DNA from: a virus
Reading direction: 5' to 3' (one strand)
Length of the DNA: 64,000 bases
IMG/VR virus record: IMGVR_UViG_3300007609_001079
Location: 37,662-101,661 of that record
Under the pieces are notes generated by a model, which worked only from the letters and a program-made list of their open reading frames with translations, ran no database searches and was not told where the DNA came from. The position numbers and the translations under genes are program-made. Below are positions 13,497 through 55,661 of the stretch, piece by piece (position 1 is the stretch's first letter; each line of letters opens with the position of its first letter).

Positions 13497-13528
13497 CAAA
13501 TATACGAAAAATATTTAATATATCCAAA
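13497..13528 (-). promoter_or_regulatory. Host-type promoter for primase operon
   Basis: On the minus strand TTTG (13525-13528), a 20-bp spacer ending in TTTCG, then TATATTTG (13497-13504). This is an exact match to the Bacteroidota -33/-7 consensus. The primase ATG is 19 nt downstream. Confidence 0.8.
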
Positions 13529-34984: not shown

Positions 34985-35026
34985 GTTAAGAAAACGTTAA
35001 ATAATGTTAAGGGAATGTTAAGTTAA
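34985..35026 (-). repeat. Phased TTAAC repeat array upstream of late promoter
   Basis: On the plus strand GTTAA begins at 34985, 34996, 35006, 35017 and 35022, i.e. spacings of 11, 10, 11 and 5. On the minus strand this reads as TTAAC repeats on one face of the helix just upstream of the -7 motif at 34971-34979. The array overlaps the 3' end of the carbamoyltransferase gene slightly. Confidence 0.6.
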
Positions 35027-36729
35027 AATATTTTCTTCTTTACAATAAAGTTACCAAGAACCAATGTATCCATTTCACAATCTAAGAAAGTTTTGATTGC
35101 CGTTAAAGGGTCTAACACCATTGTCTGGTCTTTTAGATTGAATGAAGTATTTAAAACCATTGGATACCCATTATCCTTTTCGAGTTGTTGTAATAACTTA
35201 TACATTCTTCTGTGGTGATTGTTGGATACTGATTGTATTCTTGCAGAACCATCAATGTGAGTAATTGCAGGAAGATACTTTTGATGTTCTTCTTTTACCT
35301 TTACCACTTGGTTCATATAAGGAACTACTTTATCGTAATGGAAGTAACGAGTTTGTTCTTCTAACTTTACCATTGGAGCGAATGGTCTGAACCCTTCACG
35401 TTTTTTAATTACTCGATTTACTCTTGCCTTCATTTGTGGGTCACATGGATTTGCAAGTATCGAACGATTACCTAATGCTCGCGAACCAAATTCCATAGGA
35501 CCCTCGAACCAACCCACCACATTACCTTCAGTAATTTGTTTGGATATAATTGGTATAAGTTCTGAATCTATTTTATGTTGGTAATATACTTCACTCTTCA
35601 TTGAAATTAAAACTTCTTCCATTTCTTCTCTTGAATAAGAAGGACCTAAGTAAGGATTAGTATTATCAATTCTTGGTGAATCTGGGTTGGTTCTATAAAA
35701 GAATTCTAACGCACAACCAATAGCAGAACCTGCATCAGATGGTGCAGATGGAATCCATAATTGTTTGTATAAAGATTTCTCTAAGATTTTCCCATTAGCA
35801 GTTCCGTTGTATGCACATCCCCCACTTAAACATAAGTTAGTAGTTGAACGAGTAACATATAACTTATCAATTAAACGAAATAACAAAAACTCATATTCGT
35901 GTTGTAAGGTTGCCGCTAAATCTTTATGGTCTTGAGTAAGTTCTTCTTCGGGAAATCTATTTGGTAATCCCAACAAAGAACTCAACTTCTCATTAAACAT
36001 GTGGTCATCTGACCAATCATAAGTAAAATATTTCATATCCAATTCAAATCCACCATCTTTAGTAGTTTTGTAAAGTTTCTGAAATTGTTTTAAATAGGTT
36101 TCGTGATTTCCATACGGAGCCAATCCCATTACCTTATACTCACCTTCATTAGGTTTAAATCCAAGAAAAGCAGTAAAGGCAGAATATAACATCCCCAATG
36201 AATGAGGGAAATTAATCGATTGTAGAGGGAATAATTTATTTCCTTCTCCATAATATAGAGAAGTTGTTTCCCACTCCCCTACACCATCTACCGAAAGAAT
36301 AGAGGACTTTTGGAATGGAGATGTAAAGTAAGAATATGCAACGTGAGATAAATGATGGTCTCCATACTCAATATCTACATAAGGATGTGTGATTTCAAGT
36401 ATCTGTTGTTCGATTTCTTCGAACTTTTCTTTATTACGTTGGATGATTTCTAAACGATGTTCTTTCTCAGATTTAGGTCCTCGTTTAGTTGATTGTTCAA
36501 TTCTATCTAATTTAATTTTTGGATTATCGTAAAAACAAACATCGGTAATTTCTCTACCATCAACGTTAAATTTTTTCTTTAACCAATTAATAGTATTAGT
36601 AGGGAAGGATGAATCGTGTTTGATACCCGTGAATCTTTCTTCTTCACAAGCACCCAACACTTTTCCATCTTTTAATAAGGCTGCGGCTGAATCATGGTAT
36701 CCACAACTAATTCCTAATATATAACTCAT
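35023..36729 (-). CDS. Carbamoyltransferase, NodU/TobZ family
   Basis: 568 aa, full length for the family. The N-terminal Kae1-like domain shows ILGISCGYHDSAAALL, EEERF, the metal-binding HHLSH (about 125-130) and SVDGVGEW. The C-terminal YrdC-related domain shows EGPMEFGSRALGNRSILA, REGFRPFAPMV and MNTSFNLKDQTMV. The family transfers carbamoyl phosphate-derived carbamoyl groups to hydroxyls of small molecules. Phage members acting on hydroxymethylated cytosine have been described, so DNA-base modification is a possibility here. It lies behind a late motif (36750-36759). Confidence 0.9.
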   Translation of the reverse strand: MSYILGISCGYHDSAAALLKDGKVLGACEEERFTGIKHDSSFPTNTINWLKKKFNVDGREITDVCFYDNPKIKLDRIEQSTKRGPKSEKEHRLEIIQRNKEKFEEIEQQILEITHPYVDIEYGDHHLSHVAYSYFTSPFQKSSILSVDGVGEWETTSLYYGEGNKLFPLQSINFPHSLGMLYSAFTAFLGFKPNEGEYKVMGLAPYGNHETYLKQFQKLYKTTKDGGFELDMKYFTYDWSDDHMFNEKLSSLLGLPNRFPEEELTQDHKDLAATLQHEYEFLLFRLIDKLYVTRSTTNLCLSGGCAYNGTANGKILEKSLYKQLWIPSAPSDAGSAIGCALEFFYRTNPDSPRIDNTNPYLGPSYSREEMEEVLISMKSEVYYQHKIDSELIPIISKQITEGNVVGWFEGPMEFGSRALGNRSILANPCDPQMKARVNRVIKKREGFRPFAPMVKLEEQTRYFHYDKVVPYMNQVVKVKEEHQKYLPAITHIDGSARIQSVSNNHHRRMYKLLQQLEKDNGYPMVLNTSFNLKDQTMVLDPLTAIKTFLDCEMDTLVLGNFIVKKKIF

Positions 36730-48580: not shown

Positions 48581-49879
48581 TTAGTAAGTTTTTGATGTAA
48601 AATCATCTGGGTAGTTTTCATCTTGAAATTTCTTTAACGTAGAACGAGAACCTCCTCTAAAGTTTATCCAATGATTGATTGCAGCTCTATCGTTTATCCA
48701 TCTTTCTTTTTTACTCCAATCAAACCATGGGTGGTAGTAATAGGCACGACCCTCATACGGAGATTTCCAACCACCATTTTCATACCACTCTCGTTTTTCT
48801 TCTTCAGAAATTACACCATCTCCATCAGTATCAGCCAATAGTTCATCTTCGGTAATAATACCATCTCCATCCAAGTCTAAATGTTTATTGTATTTATCTT
48901 CTTTATATTTTTCAGCAGCTTCTCTCAGAGCTTCATTTGGTTCATCTTCCTCATCATCCCATTCTAAATCATCTAAACCATCGTTAAGAGTATTATCCCA
49001 TAAATTAGATTCTTCAGATAATTCATCACTATCATCACTTTCACCATAGAGTTCTCGTTTCTGAACTACTTTCTTTTTATCTTTCTCACCCTTATCTACT
49101 TTAACTGCATTGTTAAATGCAATAACCAAAGTTACAGCAAGTGGGTCAAATACAAAAATGATAATCAAGATAAACCAATTGATAATATCCGTCATTGGTT
49201 TATCCAATAAAGTAGAAAGATATTGGAGAGGTCCTAATTCAGAACTTGCTTCAGTATCAGTATCTAACTCTAATATTTTTAATTGTATAGATTGTAGGGA
49301 ATCTGCAGCAACTTCTCGTTTTGCTTGAACCTCTTTTCTGTTTTGTTCCTCTACTTCAATTCTTTTTTGAGATAAACGAAGTTCGGTAGTTGATATCGTA
49401 TTTCTAAATCCAGTTGATGAGGTCGTATCTCTAACTTGTATACCTGATGTTTTAGCATTGGATAATGTACTAATGTTATTAGATATTCGTTCTAATTCAG
49501 TATCATATCTTGTAACATCATCACCCCAAAACTTTTCTTTTTGTTGTAAGAATTCTTTTTGTTTAGATGATACGTTGTATTGATTTAAGGTATCTTGAAA
49601 TGCAGCAGTTAAGAACCCGTAGATACCTAATGAAGTAATCAGTACCAAAATCAAGGTACCGATGATTAGATATGTTCTTAGAATTTTATTTATGTTATCC
49701 CAATAGTTGTATAGATAACCTGCAACAATTAATTTGGCGAACTCCAATGAAGATGCCATAATAATTACTGAAGTTGCAGCACCAGCAAATAGTTTTGATA
49801 AACCTGTTACTGAGAAGAATGCAGCGTTAAATGCTACAAACAATGCTGATAATCCTAATAAAAGGGTTCTAAATTTCAT
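48581..49879 (-). CDS. Multi-pass membrane protein with coiled coil and EF-hands
   Basis: 432 aa. Predicted membrane segments lie at about 5-30, 33-55, 67-92 and 235-262. Between the third and fourth is a ~130-residue coiled coil (residues ~105-215). After the last helix comes a cytoplasmic or exported tail with an acidic run and two perfect calcium loops, DLDGDGIITEDE and DTDGDGVISEEE (about 337-363), followed by an aromatic C-terminus. The topology recalls DUF4407-type phage membrane proteins. Function is unknown; superinfection exclusion or envelope remodelling are possible roles. Confidence 0.75.
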   Translation of the reverse strand: MKFRTLLLGLSALFVAFNAAFFSVTGLSKLFAGAATSVIIMASSLEFAKLIVAGYLYNYWDNINKILRTYLIIGTLILVLITSLGIYGFLTAAFQDTLNQYNVSSKQKEFLQQKEKFWGDDVTRYDTELERISNNISTLSNAKTSGIQVRDTTSSTGFRNTISTTELRLSQKRIEVEEQNRKEVQAKREVAADSLQSIQLKILELDTDTEASSELGPLQYLSTLLDKPMTDIINWFILIIIFVFDPLAVTLVIAFNNAVKVDKGEKDKKKVVQKRELYGESDDSDELSEESNLWDNTLNDGLDDLEWDDEEDEPNEALREAAEKYKEDKYNKHLDLDGDGIITEDELLADTDGDGVISEEEKREWYENGGWKSPYEGRAYYYHPWFDWSKKERWINDRAAINHWINFRGGSRSTLKKFQDENYPDDFTSKTY

Positions 49880-50202: not shown

Positions 50203-50574
50203 TTAATAGGAAATCTTTAAGGTTTTAGATTTTCTTTCGTTTTTCTTATCAATGGTTAAGATTAATAAACCATTCTCGAATTTGGCTTCTGATTTAGTTC
50301 CATCGTAATCAGTACCAACTGTCAAACTTAAATCAATATCTTTTACAAATCGAGAAGTTCCTTCTTCTTTTTTTGCCTTGATTGTGATTTCATCTTCAGT
50401 AACATCAACTTTAATATCCTTTGGATTATGACCAGTAGTGTTGATAGTTACTTTTTGTTTTCCATCTTCTAGAACTTCTGCTTCAAAAGTTCCATAAGTT
50501 CTTGTTGGAGTTGTAAATGGTTCTCTTGTTAAATCATTGATTAGTTTGTCAAAAGTTGTTAATGTTCCGTACAT
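50203..50574 (-). CDS. Small heat shock protein (Hsp20/alpha-crystallin)
   Basis: 123 aa from the ATG at 50574, chosen because AGGA precedes it by ~8 nt; an in-frame ATG at 50604 would add 10 basic residues. The alpha-crystallin domain spans about residues 32-118, with NPKDIKVDVTEDEITIKAKK and the conserved A-x-x-x-N-G-x-L element near 100-110 (AKFENGLLIL). Phage Hsp20 proteins are known in T4-like cyanophages and are thought to protect folding during morphogenesis. It is followed by a branched terminator. Confidence 0.88.
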   Translation of the reverse strand: MYGTLTTFDKLINDLTREPFTTPTRTYGTFEAEVLEDGKQKVTINTTGHNPKDIKVDVTEDEITIKAKKEEGTSRFVKDIDLSLTVGTDYDGTKSEAKFENGLLILTIDKKNERKSKTLKISY

Positions 50575-50667
50575 ATCTTTTTTCCTTTTTAATTTATTAA
50601 ACATTTTATATCTTATATTACCAAATCTATACCAAATTAGTTTTTACAAAATTTTGTCAGTATCGGG

Positions 50668-50681: not shown

Positions 50682-51365
50682 TTAGAATGCCTCCGATACT
50701 TGTTTATCTTTTCCTGATGTAGTTCTATATTCCGAATTCTCCTGTCTTGTACTCATACAATCAGCCCAATGTAAGATGTAAGGTAAATCTGTTTTAAGTT
50801 GGAAATCTTCGTTGTAAGAAATCCAATACTTCTTAGTTGCTTCATTATACAACCCATCTGCCATATGAATACCCAATTGTTCTTTTTGTGTATATTTTAT
50901 TCCATATTGATTTAATAACCAAAAGGCTCTATCGGTTACATCAAAATATTGTAGTTTTGGATTGTGAGTGTACATCTCTAATTTATTTTTTTGATGCCAC
51001 TCTGATGTTTGTGGTAAGTAATATGGTTCTTTACCATCACCAAGTTTACCTAAATCATGATGGAATGCCGCAAAGAATAATTCTTCATCAGTAAAATTTA
51101 CAATCCCACCACCTTCTACAAATAGTTTTTTAATCTTATGTGCATTTCTTGCTACATTCATTACATGGTCTATATAACCACCAGCGTATGCGGAGTGAAA
51201 GTTTAACTTCCCACTCGCAGGCGCCATGGCAAGTTCCTGGCCTAATTCTTCTTCAGAATACATGTGGAGTAGTTTTTCTAATCGTTCTCCACTAAATACC
51301 TTTTTGATAGCTTCTATAAATCTATCATAGTTTTGCTGTAATTGTTCTGCTGTGTAATTTCTCAT
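50682..51365 (-). CDS. HD-domain phosphohydrolase
   Basis: 227 aa. The HD superfamily residues are H67 (GGYIDHVMN), H103-D104 (AAFHHDLGKLG) and a distal D in LHWADCMS (about 206). Such phage proteins act as nucleotidases or as nucleotide/second-messenger hydrolases. It is similar in style to HD proteins in other T4-like phages that manage dNTP pools. It has its own consensus host-type promoter (51386-51417). Confidence 0.8.
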   Translation of the reverse strand: MRNYTAEQLQQNYDRFIEAIKKVFSGERLEKLLHMYSEEELGQELAMAPASGKLNFHSAYAGGYIDHVMNVARNAHKIKKLFVEGGGIVNFTDEELFFAAFHHDLGKLGDGKEPYYLPQTSEWHQKNKLEMYTHNPKLQYFDVTDRAFWLLNQYGIKYTQKEQLGIHMADGLYNEATKKYWISYNEDFQLKTDLPYILHWADCMSTRQENSEYRTTSGKDKQVSEAF

Positions 51366-51417: not shown

Positions 51418-51729
51418 TTATTCTAATTCTTTTCGTGTTAATGCTCTGTATAGAATTTCTAATTCTTCTTCATTGGTACATCCACCCAATCCAAAAAACC
51501 CATCTATCTCAACGATATATTCTCCTTTTTTAATTCCATAATCTTCCCATTCATCATTTGCAGTGGTCACTAATACCGGACAATTATCATCTGGATTATC
51601 TTTAGGTAAGGGTAAAATCCAATAGTAAAATTTATCACCATTCGGTTCTTTATCATGTATCTTTATCCATTTCTGTCTTTCTAAAGTTTCTTCGGTAATT
51701 GGGGTAAATATAAAATCAAAGTTTTCCAT
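51418..51729 (-). CDS. Small protein, unknown
   Basis: 103 aa, acidic with several Trp (WIKIHDKEPNGDKFYYWILP, then WEDYGIKKGEYIVEIDGFFG). Not recognised. It overlaps the start region of the lipoprotein gene by one base. It is the last gene of the promoter-52698 operon. Confidence 0.6.
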   Translation of the reverse strand: MENFDFIFTPITEETLERQKWIKIHDKEPNGDKFYYWILPLPKDNPDDNCPVLVTTANDEWEDYGIKKGEYIVEIDGFFGLGGCTNEEELEILYRALTRKELE

Positions 51730-52190
51730 TAATCTAAAACGATATTAAGTGTTTGTGTGATATCCCATTCATTAACTTTACATTCTACCCGTAGTGTATC
51801 GAATTTCATACTATATATGGGCGCAATCATATTAAAAATAGAATCATATTTATTTGGATACGATGCCAAATTTGTGGTAGGTACCTCATCTCCATGAAAT
51901 ATTGTTCCGTTTATTTTCCAAATTATATTAGATTTCCAAGATACCTTTGTGGGTTCAAGTGTATTTAAAACTCTTCCTGCTATTTTGTGAGTGGTCTGAT
52001 TGGAGTATGGGTTTAAAGTTAAATGATAATAACCATTAGAATCCATTGGCAATCTACCATAGAGTTCTAATGTTGGTACGATTGATACTTCATTAATTTC
52101 TTCAGTAGAACACGATGAGAATATAAGAAGTGCAGCAATAACACCAATTAAGATAACCCAATCTAATAATCTATTTAACTTTTCTCCCAT
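51729..52190 (-). CDS. Small phage-encoded lipoprotein
   Basis: 153 aa. The N-terminal region has a basic start, a hydrophobic segment (residues 11-24) and a lipobox ending FSSC with acylated Cys27, followed by STEE. Acidic residues just after the Cys match the lipoprotein export signal that sends Bacteroidota lipoproteins to the cell surface. The mature part is beta-rich (LELYGRLPMDSNGYYHLTL). A surface or outer-membrane lipoprotein made during infection suggests superinfection exclusion or receptor masking. Confidence 0.75.
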   Translation of the reverse strand: MGEKLNRLLDWVILIGVIAALLIFSSCSTEEINEVSIVPTLELYGRLPMDSNGYYHLTLNPYSNQTTHKIAGRVLNTLEPTKVSWKSNIIWKINGTIFHGDEVPTTNLASYPNKYDSIFNMIAPIYSMKFDTLRVECKVNEWDITQTLNIVLD

Positions 52191-52672
52191 TATAATAATC
52201 TATCTAAGATACTATCCCAATTTGGGTATTCTGATTCGATACCGTTTTCCCAATTCACACCGAATTGTAAAAGTTCTCCACTAAACTCACCGGCCCCATT
52301 CTTGGTTCTATCATCAATTAGATAATCACCAAGTAATAAATCTTTTCTGTGGGTTATGAACATTCGTTTGTGAAATAGATTTCCAAAGTGGTCTTCAATC
52401 CACAATCTTTTATCCATCGCAGAACCAGCATTACCCCAAGGAGCAGAAGTGGCAATGAATAATTCATACTTACCACTTTCGTGTAGTTTCTTTACTGCCT
52501 CGATTGCACCCTCCATTGGTGGTGGGTTTCTAAACAAACCTTGGATATGGTCTGGCATATCTTTCCATCGTTCTTCTAAATGTGGGTGTTTCTCAAACCA
52601 ATCTTTAATTGCTGCTCCGAAGTCAACCAATACACCATCCATATCGATGTAAACTATTTTCTTCTCACTCAT
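52190..52672 (-). CDS. 5'(3')-deoxyribonucleotidase-like HAD phosphatase
   Basis: 160 aa. HAD motif I is DMDGVLVD (nucleophile Asp10, general acid Asp12), motif II FIATSAPWGN, motif III/IV with KDLLLGDYLIDDRTKNG. This is the NT5C type, which removes phosphate from dNMPs. It would balance nucleotide pools together with the dCMP deaminase and HD protein. It is the first gene behind promoter 52698-52729. Confidence 0.82.
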   Translation of the reverse strand: MSEKKIVYIDMDGVLVDFGAAIKDWFEKHPHLEERWKDMPDHIQGLFRNPPPMEGAIEAVKKLHESGKYELFIATSAPWGNAGSAMDKRLWIEDHFGNLFHKRMFITHRKDLLLGDYLIDDRTKNGAGEFSGELLQFGVNWENGIESEYPNWDSILDRLL

Positions 52673-52697: not shown

Positions 52698-52729
52698 TAA
52701 AGATACGAAATTTATTTGGATATACCAAA
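52698..52729 (-). promoter_or_regulatory. Host-type promoter for dNMP phosphatase-lipoprotein operon
   Basis: TTTG (52726-52729), a 20-bp spacer ending in TTTCG, TATCTTTA (52698-52705). Confidence 0.75.
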
Positions 52730-52735
52730 TATTTT

Positions 52736-53989
52736 TTAATTTTTTTTAATAAATTTATCATTTTCAAACCACCATATATCTGTAACTTGTTCGACTTCAG
52801 AATCTCTAAAATTTGATGTATGTAACTCAACGATACCATCTCCATTAAAATCACCCAGATATAACCATTGTATCCATTGCATGTTATGATTTTCATAATC
52901 AAAATTTTCTTCCATATACAAATCAGTAACATCCGTAAACGATGTATTATCATTTCTAAAAATTTCTATTCTCCCATTAAAATATGTATTATTTGTGCTA
53001 CCAATTATATCCAAATCACCATCACCATCAATATCAAAAAATACCATATCAATTAATAAATCTCCTTGGGTTTTTATAAATGTTTTTTCTTTGGTTGTTA
53101 GGTTGTAAACAAAAGAACCTGTACCATCGAGATTATCACTTGGGTGTTTAATCTGATGACCACCCAATATTAATTCAATAGTACCATCATTGTTTAAATC
53201 AATAGATTCTGAAGTGAATTTATTATATGCGTCTAATATATCTATATCAAATTCAGTTATTACTAATCCATTGTTCCAACGTCCACCCGTATCTCCCTCA
53301 AATTCTATTATCCTTGAAATATTTCCCCAAGGTCCTTTGGGATTAATTAAAATAACTTCAGGCTTTCCATCATTATCAATATCAGATGATGTAACTGAGT
53401 GCCAATATCCATCAGCTACTCCATAATTGTTATCTAATCTAAATTCTTTAAATCCCCCATTAGTATCATTAATTAATATAATAGGATATTCATTTGGAAT
53501 ATAGTTTGGTTGATTTGAATCGGGACCCGTTCCGGCAAAGAATACATCCAAGAAACCATCACCATTATAATCTCCAATAATACTCTTTCTTGCATGGATT
53601 AATCCTATAAATTTATTAGTATTGTTGGAATCTTCAATTAAGTTACCATCACCATCACCCAAGTAGAATTTGATATATCTTCTAACTCGATTACCTTGAA
53701 TTGAATTACCAACATCAGTATTATTATAAATAAAATCCAAATGACCATCGTTATTATAATCAAAAATAGCCATATCCTCTGGATAAAAATCATCCCATAC
53801 AAACTCATTAAACAAATATGGTAATCGGTTGTTTACCGAATTTGAATTAAAATAACTATTATCAATACCCTGATATGAATATTCGGTTATATTATCAATA
53901 ACCAATGGTTCATATATGGTATCAATTATTTCATCTTTACTACAACTAACTAAAGTTAAAACAAACAATAATAAAAATTTAATTTTCAT
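52736..53989 (-). CDS. Surface lipoprotein with FG-GAP/VCBS beta-propeller
   Basis: 417 aa. Signal peptide with lipobox LVSC (Cys16) followed by SKDE, the acidic pattern of Bacteroidota surface-lipoprotein export. The mature chain has six calcium-loop units of the DxNxDGxx[DE] type: DYNNDGHLD, DYNGDGFLD, DIDNDGKPE, DLNNDGTIE, DIDGDGDLD, DFNGDGIVE. These are the marks of FG-GAP/VCBS blades of an integrin-alpha-like propeller. Such proteins are normally host cell-surface proteins. In a phage it could block receptors, act in adhesion, or be an acquired gene. It is cotranscribed with the 69-aa and 70-aa genes from promoter 54431-54462. Confidence 0.85.
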   Translation of the reverse strand: MKIKFLLLFVLTLVSCSKDEIIDTIYEPLVIDNITEYSYQGIDNSYFNSNSVNNRLPYLFNEFVWDDFYPEDMAIFDYNNDGHLDFIYNNTDVGNSIQGNRVRRYIKFYLGDGDGNLIEDSNNTNKFIGLIHARKSIIGDYNGDGFLDVFFAGTGPDSNQPNYIPNEYPIILINDTNGGFKEFRLDNNYGVADGYWHSVTSSDIDNDGKPEVILINPKGPWGNISRIIEFEGDTGGRWNNGLVITEFDIDILDAYNKFTSESIDLNNDGTIELILGGHQIKHPSDNLDGTGSFVYNLTTKEKTFIKTQGDLLIDMVFFDIDGDGDLDIIGSTNNTYFNGRIEIFRNDNTSFTDVTDLYMEENFDYENHNMQWIQWLYLGDFNGDGIVELHTSNFRDSEVEQVTDIWWFENDKFIKKN

Positions 53990-53990
53990 A

Positions 53991-54203
53991 TTAATTATAA
54001 TTTAAGTTATTTAAGTTATTTTTTTCTTCTAATTGGTAAGAGCGAAATCCCATAATTGGTTTAATACCACTTACTTCAATTTCTCTCTCTTTAATTAACG
54101 TGTTGGTTAATCTTAAAGTTTCCAAATCAGTTTCAGTTCTTACCCAATCATTAAAAAGGTAGGTTAACAATTTAGCTTTTAACTTTTGTATCATATCTCT
54201 CAT
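53991..54203 (-). CDS. Small protein, unknown
   Basis: 70 aa, helical (KLKAKLLTYLFNDWVRTETD, then LRLTNTLIKEREIEVSGIKP). Its first bases are nearly the same as those of the next upstream gene (ATGAGAGATATGA), suggesting duplication of a start region. Not recognised. Confidence 0.6.
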   Translation of the reverse strand: MRDMIQKLKAKLLTYLFNDWVRTETDLETLRLTNTLIKEREIEVSGIKPIMGFRSYQLEEKNNLNNLNYN

Positions 54204-54207
54204 TTTA

Positions 54208-54417
54208 TTATATATAATCGTATCGTGAAGCCTCTAACTCATATTGTTCATGCTCCATATCAGTATCCCAATCAAAATCATCACTACTATCTACTACAAT
54301 ATCAGTTTCATTAGGAAGTAAATCTAACATATCATCCAACTCAACATCGGTAATCATTCCGTTGGCATATCCAACAACTAACTCGTTTACTCTTTCTTTA
54401 TAATTCATATCTCTCAT
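54208..54417 (-). CDS. Small acidic protein, unknown
   Basis: 69 aa from the ATG at 54417. An in-frame TTG 27 nt upstream is rejected because it lies in the promoter -7 box. It is very acidic in the C-terminal half (DIVVDSSDDFDWDTDMEHEQ). First gene behind promoter 54431-54462. Function unknown. Confidence 0.65.
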   Translation of the reverse strand: MRDMNYKERVNELVVGYANGMITDVELDDMLDLLPNETDIVVDSSDDFDWDTDMEHEQYELEASRYDYI

Positions 54418-54430
54418 TTTTATTACATAG

Positions 54431-54462
54431 TAAATGTACAACAATTATTCAGGTTTACCAAA
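54431..54462 (-). promoter_or_regulatory. Host-type promoter for FG-GAP lipoprotein operon
   Basis: TTTG (54459-54462), a 20-bp spacer, TACATTTA (54431-54438). Two TTAAC elements 11 bp apart lie upstream (54471, 54482). Confidence 0.7.
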
Positions 54463-54470
54463 TCCTAAAT

Positions 54471-54486
54471 GTTAAAATTTTGTTAA
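54471..54486 (-). repeat. TTAAC pair upstream of promoter 54431
   Basis: GTTAA on the plus strand at 54471 and 54482, 11 bp apart. The nearer one is 12 bp from the -33 TTG. Nearly the same sequence and spacing occur at 55814-55829. Confidence 0.5.
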
Positions 54487-55661
54487 AGTTTATTAACAGA
54501 AAACATTCCCAAATTATTCATACCGAATTCAAGGTCTGATAATAAGTTTGAAAATAATTCTGTGTTTTCTTGGTTTCCTTTAATATACAATTCCTCTTTT
54601 AGTTTCATAATTTGTTTAGCGTGATTATGAAGTTCTCCAAATAAAATACTTGGGTCTAAATTCTCAATTGATTTTATATGTGCAGATTGTAATTTCTGTG
54701 ATTGGTAATTTATAATATCAGTTATACCAACATCACAACTCTTTATACTTACCAACGTATAACTTAGATATAACCCAAGTGATTGTTTTACATTTGATAT
54801 TAAATCTAAGTTGATTGATTTTATTTGATTGGGTTTTGATTTTAGAATTTGACCTGCGATAATATTGTAAACTAACTTTATATCGTTATTAAATTTCGGT
54901 AAAAGTTGATTGATAAAATCTTCCAAGAATAAAACATTACCTTTGGATGAGGACATCTTCTCACCATCTAACATTACCAATCCTAATCCCAAATGATTGG
55001 TGTTTGGAAATAATTGGTTAAGAGAATTGAAATGATTATCTTGTTCAAACCCAGTCAAGTAAAGTGTTGATTTGTTTAATTTTTGTGCCAAGGCAACATC
55101 TTGATAGAAATAAGAAGTTGAATTATCTGATTTTATTCCTACTATCTTTTCATTACCTATCTCAAATATTTTAGTATCAGAGTAATCACCATTACCACTT
55201 GTAAGTAATGAATCATCATCGAGTTCCATTTCAGATGCGAAATAAATATCTGATATTTCATAACCAAAGTTTTTACAATACTCTTTATACTTTTGTAATG
55301 CAAGTTCCTTACTAACTTCACCACTCAAAGTATCACCAAGAATGGAAATAAAGTTTTTGCCAACTCCCAACTTTTGGAATGAGTTTGCCAATACTAAATT
55401 GGAAAAATGTCCAATATGAAGTTCTTTATTCAAGTTAGGAGAAAACCCATCTACATACTCATATGGAGTTGGTGTTTCAAAACACTCAAATAAATTTTGA
55501 TTGGTTGGTATTATAATATTTGTAAACGGACCAGATTGTTGAGTTTTAAAGTTCCAATAAGTTACCCAGTCTTTTACTTCGTTTGTTAATTCACCATACT
55601 GACAGAATCCGAATTCTAAATGTGATGGTGTTTGTTTTATTTTGTTTATATTAAGTTTCAT
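54483..55661 (-). CDS. Class I aminoacyl-tRNA synthetase core, ArgRS-like
   Basis: 392 aa. HIGH at 82-85 in LNKELHIGHFSNLVLANS and KMSSSKGN at 235-242 define a class I synthetase. IKSDNSTSYFYQDVALAQ (177-194) matches the ArgRS signature (KSDG-x-x-x-Y-x-x-x-D-x-A). NVKQSLGLYLSYTLVSI corresponds to the ArgRS helix leading into the anticodon-binding domain. Full ArgRS is ~550-580 aa with an N-terminal Add-1 domain; here the N-terminal part is short and the C-terminal DALR domain small. It may charge tRNA-Arg or act as an ArgRS-like modifying enzyme. It lies behind a promoter and a 14-codon leader ORF. Confidence 0.8.
   Translation of the reverse strand: MKLNINKIKQTPSHLEFGFCQYGELTNEVKDWVTYWNFKTQQSGPFTNIIIPTNQNLFECFETPTPYEYVDGFSPNLNKELHIGHFSNLVLANSFQKLGVGKNFISILGDTLSGEVSKELALQKYKEYCKNFGYEISDIYFASEMELDDDSLLTSGNGDYSDTKIFEIGNEKIVGIKSDNSTSYFYQDVALAQKLNKSTLYLTGFEQDNHFNSLNQLFPNTNHLGLGLVMLDGEKMSSSKGNVLFLEDFINQLLPKFNNDIKLVYNIIAGQILKSKPNQIKSINLDLISNVKQSLGLYLSYTLVSIKSCDVGITDIINYQSQKLQSAHIKSIENLDPSILFGELHNHAKQIMKLKEELYIKGNQENTELFSNLLSDLEFGMNNLGMFSVNKL

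Follow-up and report, generated by a model that had tools for sequence, protein, structure and literature searches.

A phage-encoded FG-GAP lipoprotein with a Bacteroidota-type surface-export signal and a possible role in receptor masking

What is a lipoprotein that resembles the surface proteins of flavobacteria doing in a phage genome? The question is raised by a gene in the 64,000-nt stretch of DNA analysed here (the window), which is part of a 101,661-base IMG/VR virus record. A preliminary description, made from the sequence alone, took the product to be a surface lipoprotein with a six-motif FG-GAP propeller, placed it in the host envelope rather than in the virion, and pointed to T5 Llp as a phage lipoprotein that blocks a receptor.

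Lipid anchor, export signal and predicted fold

The features on which that description relied, namely the lipobox at Cys16, the SKDE that follows it and six DxNxDGx[DE] calcium loops, are all present in the open reading frame (Table 1). The signal peptide reads MKIKFLLLFVLTLVSC, with the lipobox Cys as residue 16 and SKDE directly behind it. Successive loops are separated by 55–63 residues, and the six motifs are far above chance. Pfam assigns FG-GAP_3 (E=4.1e-21, 75.8 bits against a curated cut-off of 26.9) and FG-GAP (E=9e-12, 45 bits against 22.1), and integrin alpha-V is a profile match at 1e-8; the lipobox and the FG-GAP_3 match together support a phage-encoded lipoprotein with an FG-GAP propeller. 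When a strict lipoprotein-signal filter was applied to the whole record, two ORFs passed, this one and the small lipoprotein gene described below, and none of 1,974 residue-shuffled ORFs of related loci did so.

Table 1. Positions of the features discussed, in window coordinates
Feature	Position	Strand	Basis
FG-GAP propeller lipoprotein gene, 417 aa, ATG start	52736..53989	-	ORF, Pfam, phage homologues, structure model
Type II signal peptide, residues 1-16, to lipobox Cys16	53942..53989	-	sequence, homologue alignment, strict scan
Predicted surface-export signal SKDE (+2 to +5)	53930..53941	-	fits C-x-K-(D/E)2 (PMC5080379)
Calcium loop 1, residues 77-85, DYNNDGHLD	53735..53761	-	sequence
Calcium loop 2, residues 140-148, DYNGDGFLD	53546..53572	-	sequence
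Calcium loop 3, residues 203-211, DIDNDGKPE	53357..53383	-	sequence
Calcium loop 4, residues 264-272, DLNNDGTIE	53174..53200	-	sequence
Calcium loop 5, residues 319-327, DIDGDGDLD	53009..53035	-	sequence
Calcium loop 6, residues 380-388, DFNGDGIVE	52826..52852	-	sequence
g70, 70-aa protein, upstream neighbour of the FG-GAP gene	53991..54203	-	homologues in other phages
g78, first ORF of the g78-g70-FG-GAP run	54208..54417	-	probable start ATG 54417
Host-type promoter of the g78-g70-FG-GAP run, TTTGG-N19-TACATTTA	54431..54462	-	motif scan
Host-type promoter between FG-GAP gene and NT5C, precedes NT5C	52698..52729	-	motif scan, tighter pattern
NT5C-type 5'-nucleotidase, constant gene on the downstream side of the slot	52190..52672	-	Pfam NT5C 5.9e-15, synteny
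Second small lipoprotein, 153 aa, C-STEE	51729..52190	-	synteny in most related loci; lipobox

In Capnocytophaga, the minimal signal for surface localization is K-(D/E)2, with an optimum of C-x-K-(D/E)2-x; no motif of this type was found in periplasm-facing lipoproteins, and its addition to such a lipoprotein leads to surface exposure, so that the signal is sufficient for transport (PMC5080379). The C-S-K-D-E of the window protein fits the published optimal Bacteroidota signal C-x-K-(D/E)2, and the proposed outer-face signal is thus of the hosts' own type. In an alignment of 19 phage homologues, including the window copy, the lipobox Cys16 is invariant, and the few other invariant residues include calcium-loop aspartates. 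An acidic export-type signal is present in 13 of the 18 other distinct copies, with forms that include C-S-K-E-D, C-T-K-E-D, C-T-K-D-E, C-E-K-E-E and C-E-K-D-E in homologues that are about 25% identical elsewhere; it is absent, with the Cys kept, from four outlying copies (L089, L092, L093 and L100) and from L102. These sequences give good support to the prediction that the protein is displayed on the outside of the infected cell.

The protein might instead remain on the periplasmic side and jam a receptor from within, in the manner of T5 Llp and Cor. The phage exclusion lipoproteins of known structure do act from that side (PMC9586334), and the five copies that lack the acidic signal would suit such a location. 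Nevertheless, the window copy and most of the others carry a signal that suffices for surface transport (PMC5080379), and a 400-residue propeller is unlike the small Llp and Cor proteins, making a periplasmic role improbable.

An AlphaFold2 model built from the 19 sequences, superseding a first model from nine sequences (pLDDT 59), displays six groups of about four strands each (pLDDT 68.8, pTM 0.74); the number of blades is not certain. Foldseek matches to this model include the UmbA4-complex entry 9oee, integrin alpha, CRTAC1 and the PLL lectins PLL2 and PLL3, at TM values of about 0.44–0.53. As modelled, the class of fold appears clear.

Gene neighbourhood and phage relatives

Single-protein searches with the FG-GAP lipoprotein returned no match in annotated phages, viral contigs or PHROG families. 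Relatives were reached through the HD-domain gene at 50682–51365, which among annotated phages is common only to the Flavobacterium phage immuto group (42% identity) and which brought in 80 related viral loci. In all, 18 further distinct phage homologues of the FG-GAP lipoprotein were identified, at 21–27% identity. FG-GAP matches in L083, L095, L098, L099 and L104 were excluded as homologues, being fragments or devoid of a lipobox.

The usual order of these loci is PhoH, a variable slot, NT5C, a small lipoprotein, g103, HD, HSP20, a membrane protein and UvdE. Most phage copies of the FG-GAP gene occupy this one slot, directly upstream of the 5'-nucleotidase and small lipoprotein genes (L037, L046, L047, L049, L052, L053, L059, L061, L085, L090 and L096), and in other phages the slot upstream of NT5C holds unrelated ORFs. 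Homologues of g70 precede the FG-GAP gene in L086, L087, L090, L091 and L096, and none of g78 was found among the related loci examined. In other phages the homologue lies outside the slot: that of L092 is found among an apparent DNA ligase, an apparent HAD phosphatase and other non-structural genes, and that of L102 with apparent DNA ligase, SAM synthetase and sliding clamp genes, as well as adjoining a small lipoprotein (these gene names being read from sequence).

The context of the FG-GAP gene is therefore non-structural in all settings examined, in agreement with a non-virion location. A virion component, such as a tail decoration or adhesin, is conceivable in that some large viral proteins of unknown role have propeller-like folds. 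However, a signal peptide and lipobox are conserved in 19 of 19 copies, and the neighbours (nucleotidase, PhoH, HSP20 and UvdE, or the apparent ligase, clamp and synthetase) include no tail genes, which leaves this explanation highly improbable.

The small lipoprotein downstream of NT5C is near-universal in the phage group and commoner than the FG-GAP gene. Its homologues (L002–L077) are about 140–190 residues long, and the family has no Pfam or PHROG match. A recognisable lipobox is present in at least 36 of 37 distinct copies, and two or more acidic residues within +2 to +6 in at least 30 of the 37; both counts are lower bounds because the simple pattern used mis-registered a few copies. A further lipoprotein family of about 113–118 residues (e.g., C-QPDE) was seen in L008 (1757–2095), L011 (3204–3542) and L013 (177–530). 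Homologues of the conserved membrane protein of the cassette (48581–49879) contain a mimic of a lipobox in relatives but look polytopic, and were excluded as lipoproteins; the window copy has an acidic tail with two EF-hand-like loops.

The host-type promoter that the preliminary description placed before the operon was found directly upstream of the g78-g70-FG-GAP run. The site belongs to the Flavobacterium sigma-A class, which is characterized by a -7 box of TAnnTTTG (PMC9723704), and the listed TTG start of g78 falls upstream of that box. Sites of this class number 22 in the window against 10.4 expected, and a tighter pattern representing a repeated phage promoter, TTTGG-N15-TTTCGTATnTTTR, has 13 matches against 1.6 expected, including those at 13497, 38463, 40321, 48545, 52698 and 55774. 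Sites of this class are also found ahead of primase, UvdE and other genes, and for this reason they are taken as a sign that the host polymerase is used, not of the early timing that had been suggested.

Two other genes of the window deserve mention. The ORF at 54483–55661 encodes 392 residues with motifs like those of class I aminoacyl-tRNA synthetases (HIGH and KMSSSKG) and sub-threshold Pfam matches; full-length relatives were found in just two phages, both uncultured and about 635 kb in size (60% and 48%). A Nol-like carbamoyltransferase (35023–36729; PHROG 8e-110) is likely a modification enzyme of the window phage.

Host relatives and exchange of the propeller

Nothing was returned at 1e-15 when the window protein alone was searched across the phylum, whereas family-level searches of Flavobacteriaceae genomes recovered true host homologues. 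Their counts are minimum values, since only a few candidates were scored in each genome. The host relatives anticipated at the outset are chromosomal Flavobacteriaceae lipoproteins with a propeller, and these, not the other phage copies, are the nearest kin of the window protein: three of them match it at E 2e-34 (L192), 3e-33 and 2e-21, as opposed to 5e-17 or weaker for all other phage copies. The host proteins L192, L195, L196, L197 and L203 consist of a lipobox (C-S-...), usually an InlB-type repeat, and then the propeller; the repeat (PF18998) was detected in three of four host proteins scanned and is absent from the window protein. A set of 80 bacterial FG-GAP loci was dropped as kin, these being mostly generic FG-GAP repeats of large proteins. 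In a first tree the window protein groups with the host proteins (support 90/89), and with the hosts also its closest relatives, capture of the gene from hosts is likely. A single phage clade was not rejected by the AU test (p=0.10), and more than one capture is therefore suggested only.

Closely related phages provide a view of how the gene changes. In L059 and L061, compared in 120-base bins, identity is 88–99% in the segment of the FG-GAP gene that encodes the signal peptide and in the flanking genes (PhoH, the small genes, NT5C, the small lipoprotein, g103 and HD), and drops to 50–80% across the propeller. Synonymous divergence between the two is 1.14 in the FG-GAP gene versus 0.15–0.45 in six neighbours, that is, 2.5–7 times that of the flanking genes, indicating that the propeller was replaced by recombination and not merely selected to change. 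The same pattern is seen in L046 and L047 (signal segment 92%, propeller 49–70%, flanks 76–97%). By these comparisons, the ectodomain is replaced among near-identical relatives, with the anchor and export signal kept. All of this evidence comes from pairs of relatives; the window allele has no close relative in the collections, and no swap was seen for it. Similarity of the FG-GAP protein was also compared with that of its neighbours over 66 phage pairs, which are not independent: it is lower than for NT5C in all 66, for HD in 36 of 36, for PhoH in 45 of 45 and for g103 in 65. Elsewhere in the cassette, the HSP20-like gene (50203–50604) ranges from 26 to 100% identity between phages, suggesting replacement there too.

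Within close pairs, dN/dS of the FG-GAP gene is 0.11–0.31, so that each propeller allele is under purifying selection, and pervasive positive selection was rejected on the same values. This has a bearing on whether the gene is simply a captured passenger with no function for the phage, as its host kin and the patchy occupancy of the slot might suggest. A passenger would not be expected to occur in many distantly related phages, in most of them in one slot, nor to retain an open reading frame, dN/dS well below 1 and its own host-type promoter, and this explanation is very unlikely.

A binding protein on display would be expected to keep its anchor and export signal constant while its ectodomain is exchanged, as in these phages. 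Swapping of this kind would fit a variable binding role at the surface in general, and exclusion is just one such role. The main rival to receptor masking is a protein that is displayed on the surface and alters the behaviour of the infected cell, for example through adhesion, aggregation or the capture of polysaccharide or ions, without blocking adsorption. The closest relatives are host lipoproteins that share this layout and whose roles presumably have nothing to do with phages, and the fold search returns the lectins PLL2 and PLL3 as well as integrin alpha chains. Yet it is less obvious what a lytic phage would gain within a single infection cycle, and recognition of a changing partner would better account for repeated replacement of the ectodomain. 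Neither objection is decisive, and an effect on cell behaviour is regarded as somewhat unlikely.

Possible receptor masking and comparison with known systems

The reading favoured here, tentatively and at a probability a little short of even, is that the infected cell displays the propeller to mask a receptor against further phages (superinfection exclusion). The infected flavobacterium would attach a lipid to Cys16 of the protein, and the C-S-K-D-E signal would direct it to the outer face of the outer membrane, where a six-motif, calcium-stabilised beta-propeller would stand on a short linker. This propeller, which the phages probably acquired from surface lipoproteins of this type in their hosts, would bind a receptor on the cell surface, for example a glycan or a TonB-dependent transporter, and thereby keep later phages from attaching to the infected cell or to its debris. 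Replacement of the ectodomain may track changes in the receptor used or in rival phages. Such display and masking would account for the export-type signal, the position among non-structural genes, the presence of the gene in only some phages and the exchange of its propeller.

Several lines of evidence are consistent with masking. The lipobox and C-x-K-(D/E)2 signal are retained in otherwise divergent copies, and the gene is an optional occupant of a fixed slot, with chromosomal Flavobacteriaceae lipoproteins as the nearest kin of its product. By analogy, BtuG provides a known case of a propeller surface lipoprotein seated on a TonB-dependent transporter (PMC10404256), and T5 Llp one of a phage lipoprotein that closes a TonB-dependent receptor (PMC9586334). 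On the other side, 5 of the 18 other copies lack the acidic signal, and selection within alleles is purifying. In a broader form, a large group of Bacteroidota phages might possess a modular surface-mask system, in which a near-constant small lipoprotein is accompanied by an optional propeller lipoprotein with fixed anchor and export signal, the propeller being exchanged by recombination, restocked from hosts and matched to the current receptor or competing phages. This larger proposal is speculative and rather unlikely to hold as a whole.

No description of phage-encoded Bacteroidota surface lipoproteins or FG-GAP phage lipoproteins was found in open-licence PMC papers. The swapped propellers offer a natural allele set that can be tried on panels of phages, and could also be used to probe independently the machinery by which lipoproteins are moved to the outer face.

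Among known systems, the phage protein has the FG-GAP repeats with calcium loops of integrin alpha and CRTAC1 (Foldseek probability 1.00, TM about 0.5), although integrins have seven blades, whereas six repeats are seen here together with a bacterial lipid anchor. With the Bacteroidota surface lipoproteins (Lauber et al., 2016; PMC5080379) it shares the C-x-K-(D/E)2 motif at the lipidated Cys, and differs in being a phage gene product whose location is predicted from sequence. It is closest to the Flavobacteriaceae FG-GAP lipoproteins, at about 30–33% identity, with the same lipobox Cys, polar or acidic stretch and propeller; unlike L192, L195, L197 and L203, it is phage-encoded and lacks an InlB-type repeat between anchor and propeller (none was called in L196 either). 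BtuG of Bacteroides, a propeller surface lipoprotein seated on the TonB-dependent transporter BtuB (PMC10404256), likewise has a lipid anchor and a linker that hold a beta-propeller at the outer face, the location predicted for the phage protein. BtuG differs in its seven blades and its vitamin B12 site, and none of the neighbours of the phage gene that were examined encodes a transporter. Finally, coliphage lipoproteins that close the door behind an infecting phage are known, and T5 Llp and T1-type Cor resemble the phage protein as phage-encoded outer-membrane lipoproteins for which the proposed end is a blocked receptor (PMC9586334). As a close model, however, T5 Llp did not hold up, and the analogy is loose: the Llp and Cor proteins are small, with neither propeller nor surface signal, and Llp, the solved one, is unrelated, faces the periplasm and acts from inside by allostery on FhuA (PMC9586334), whereas the phage protein is a 417-residue propeller with a surface-type signal.
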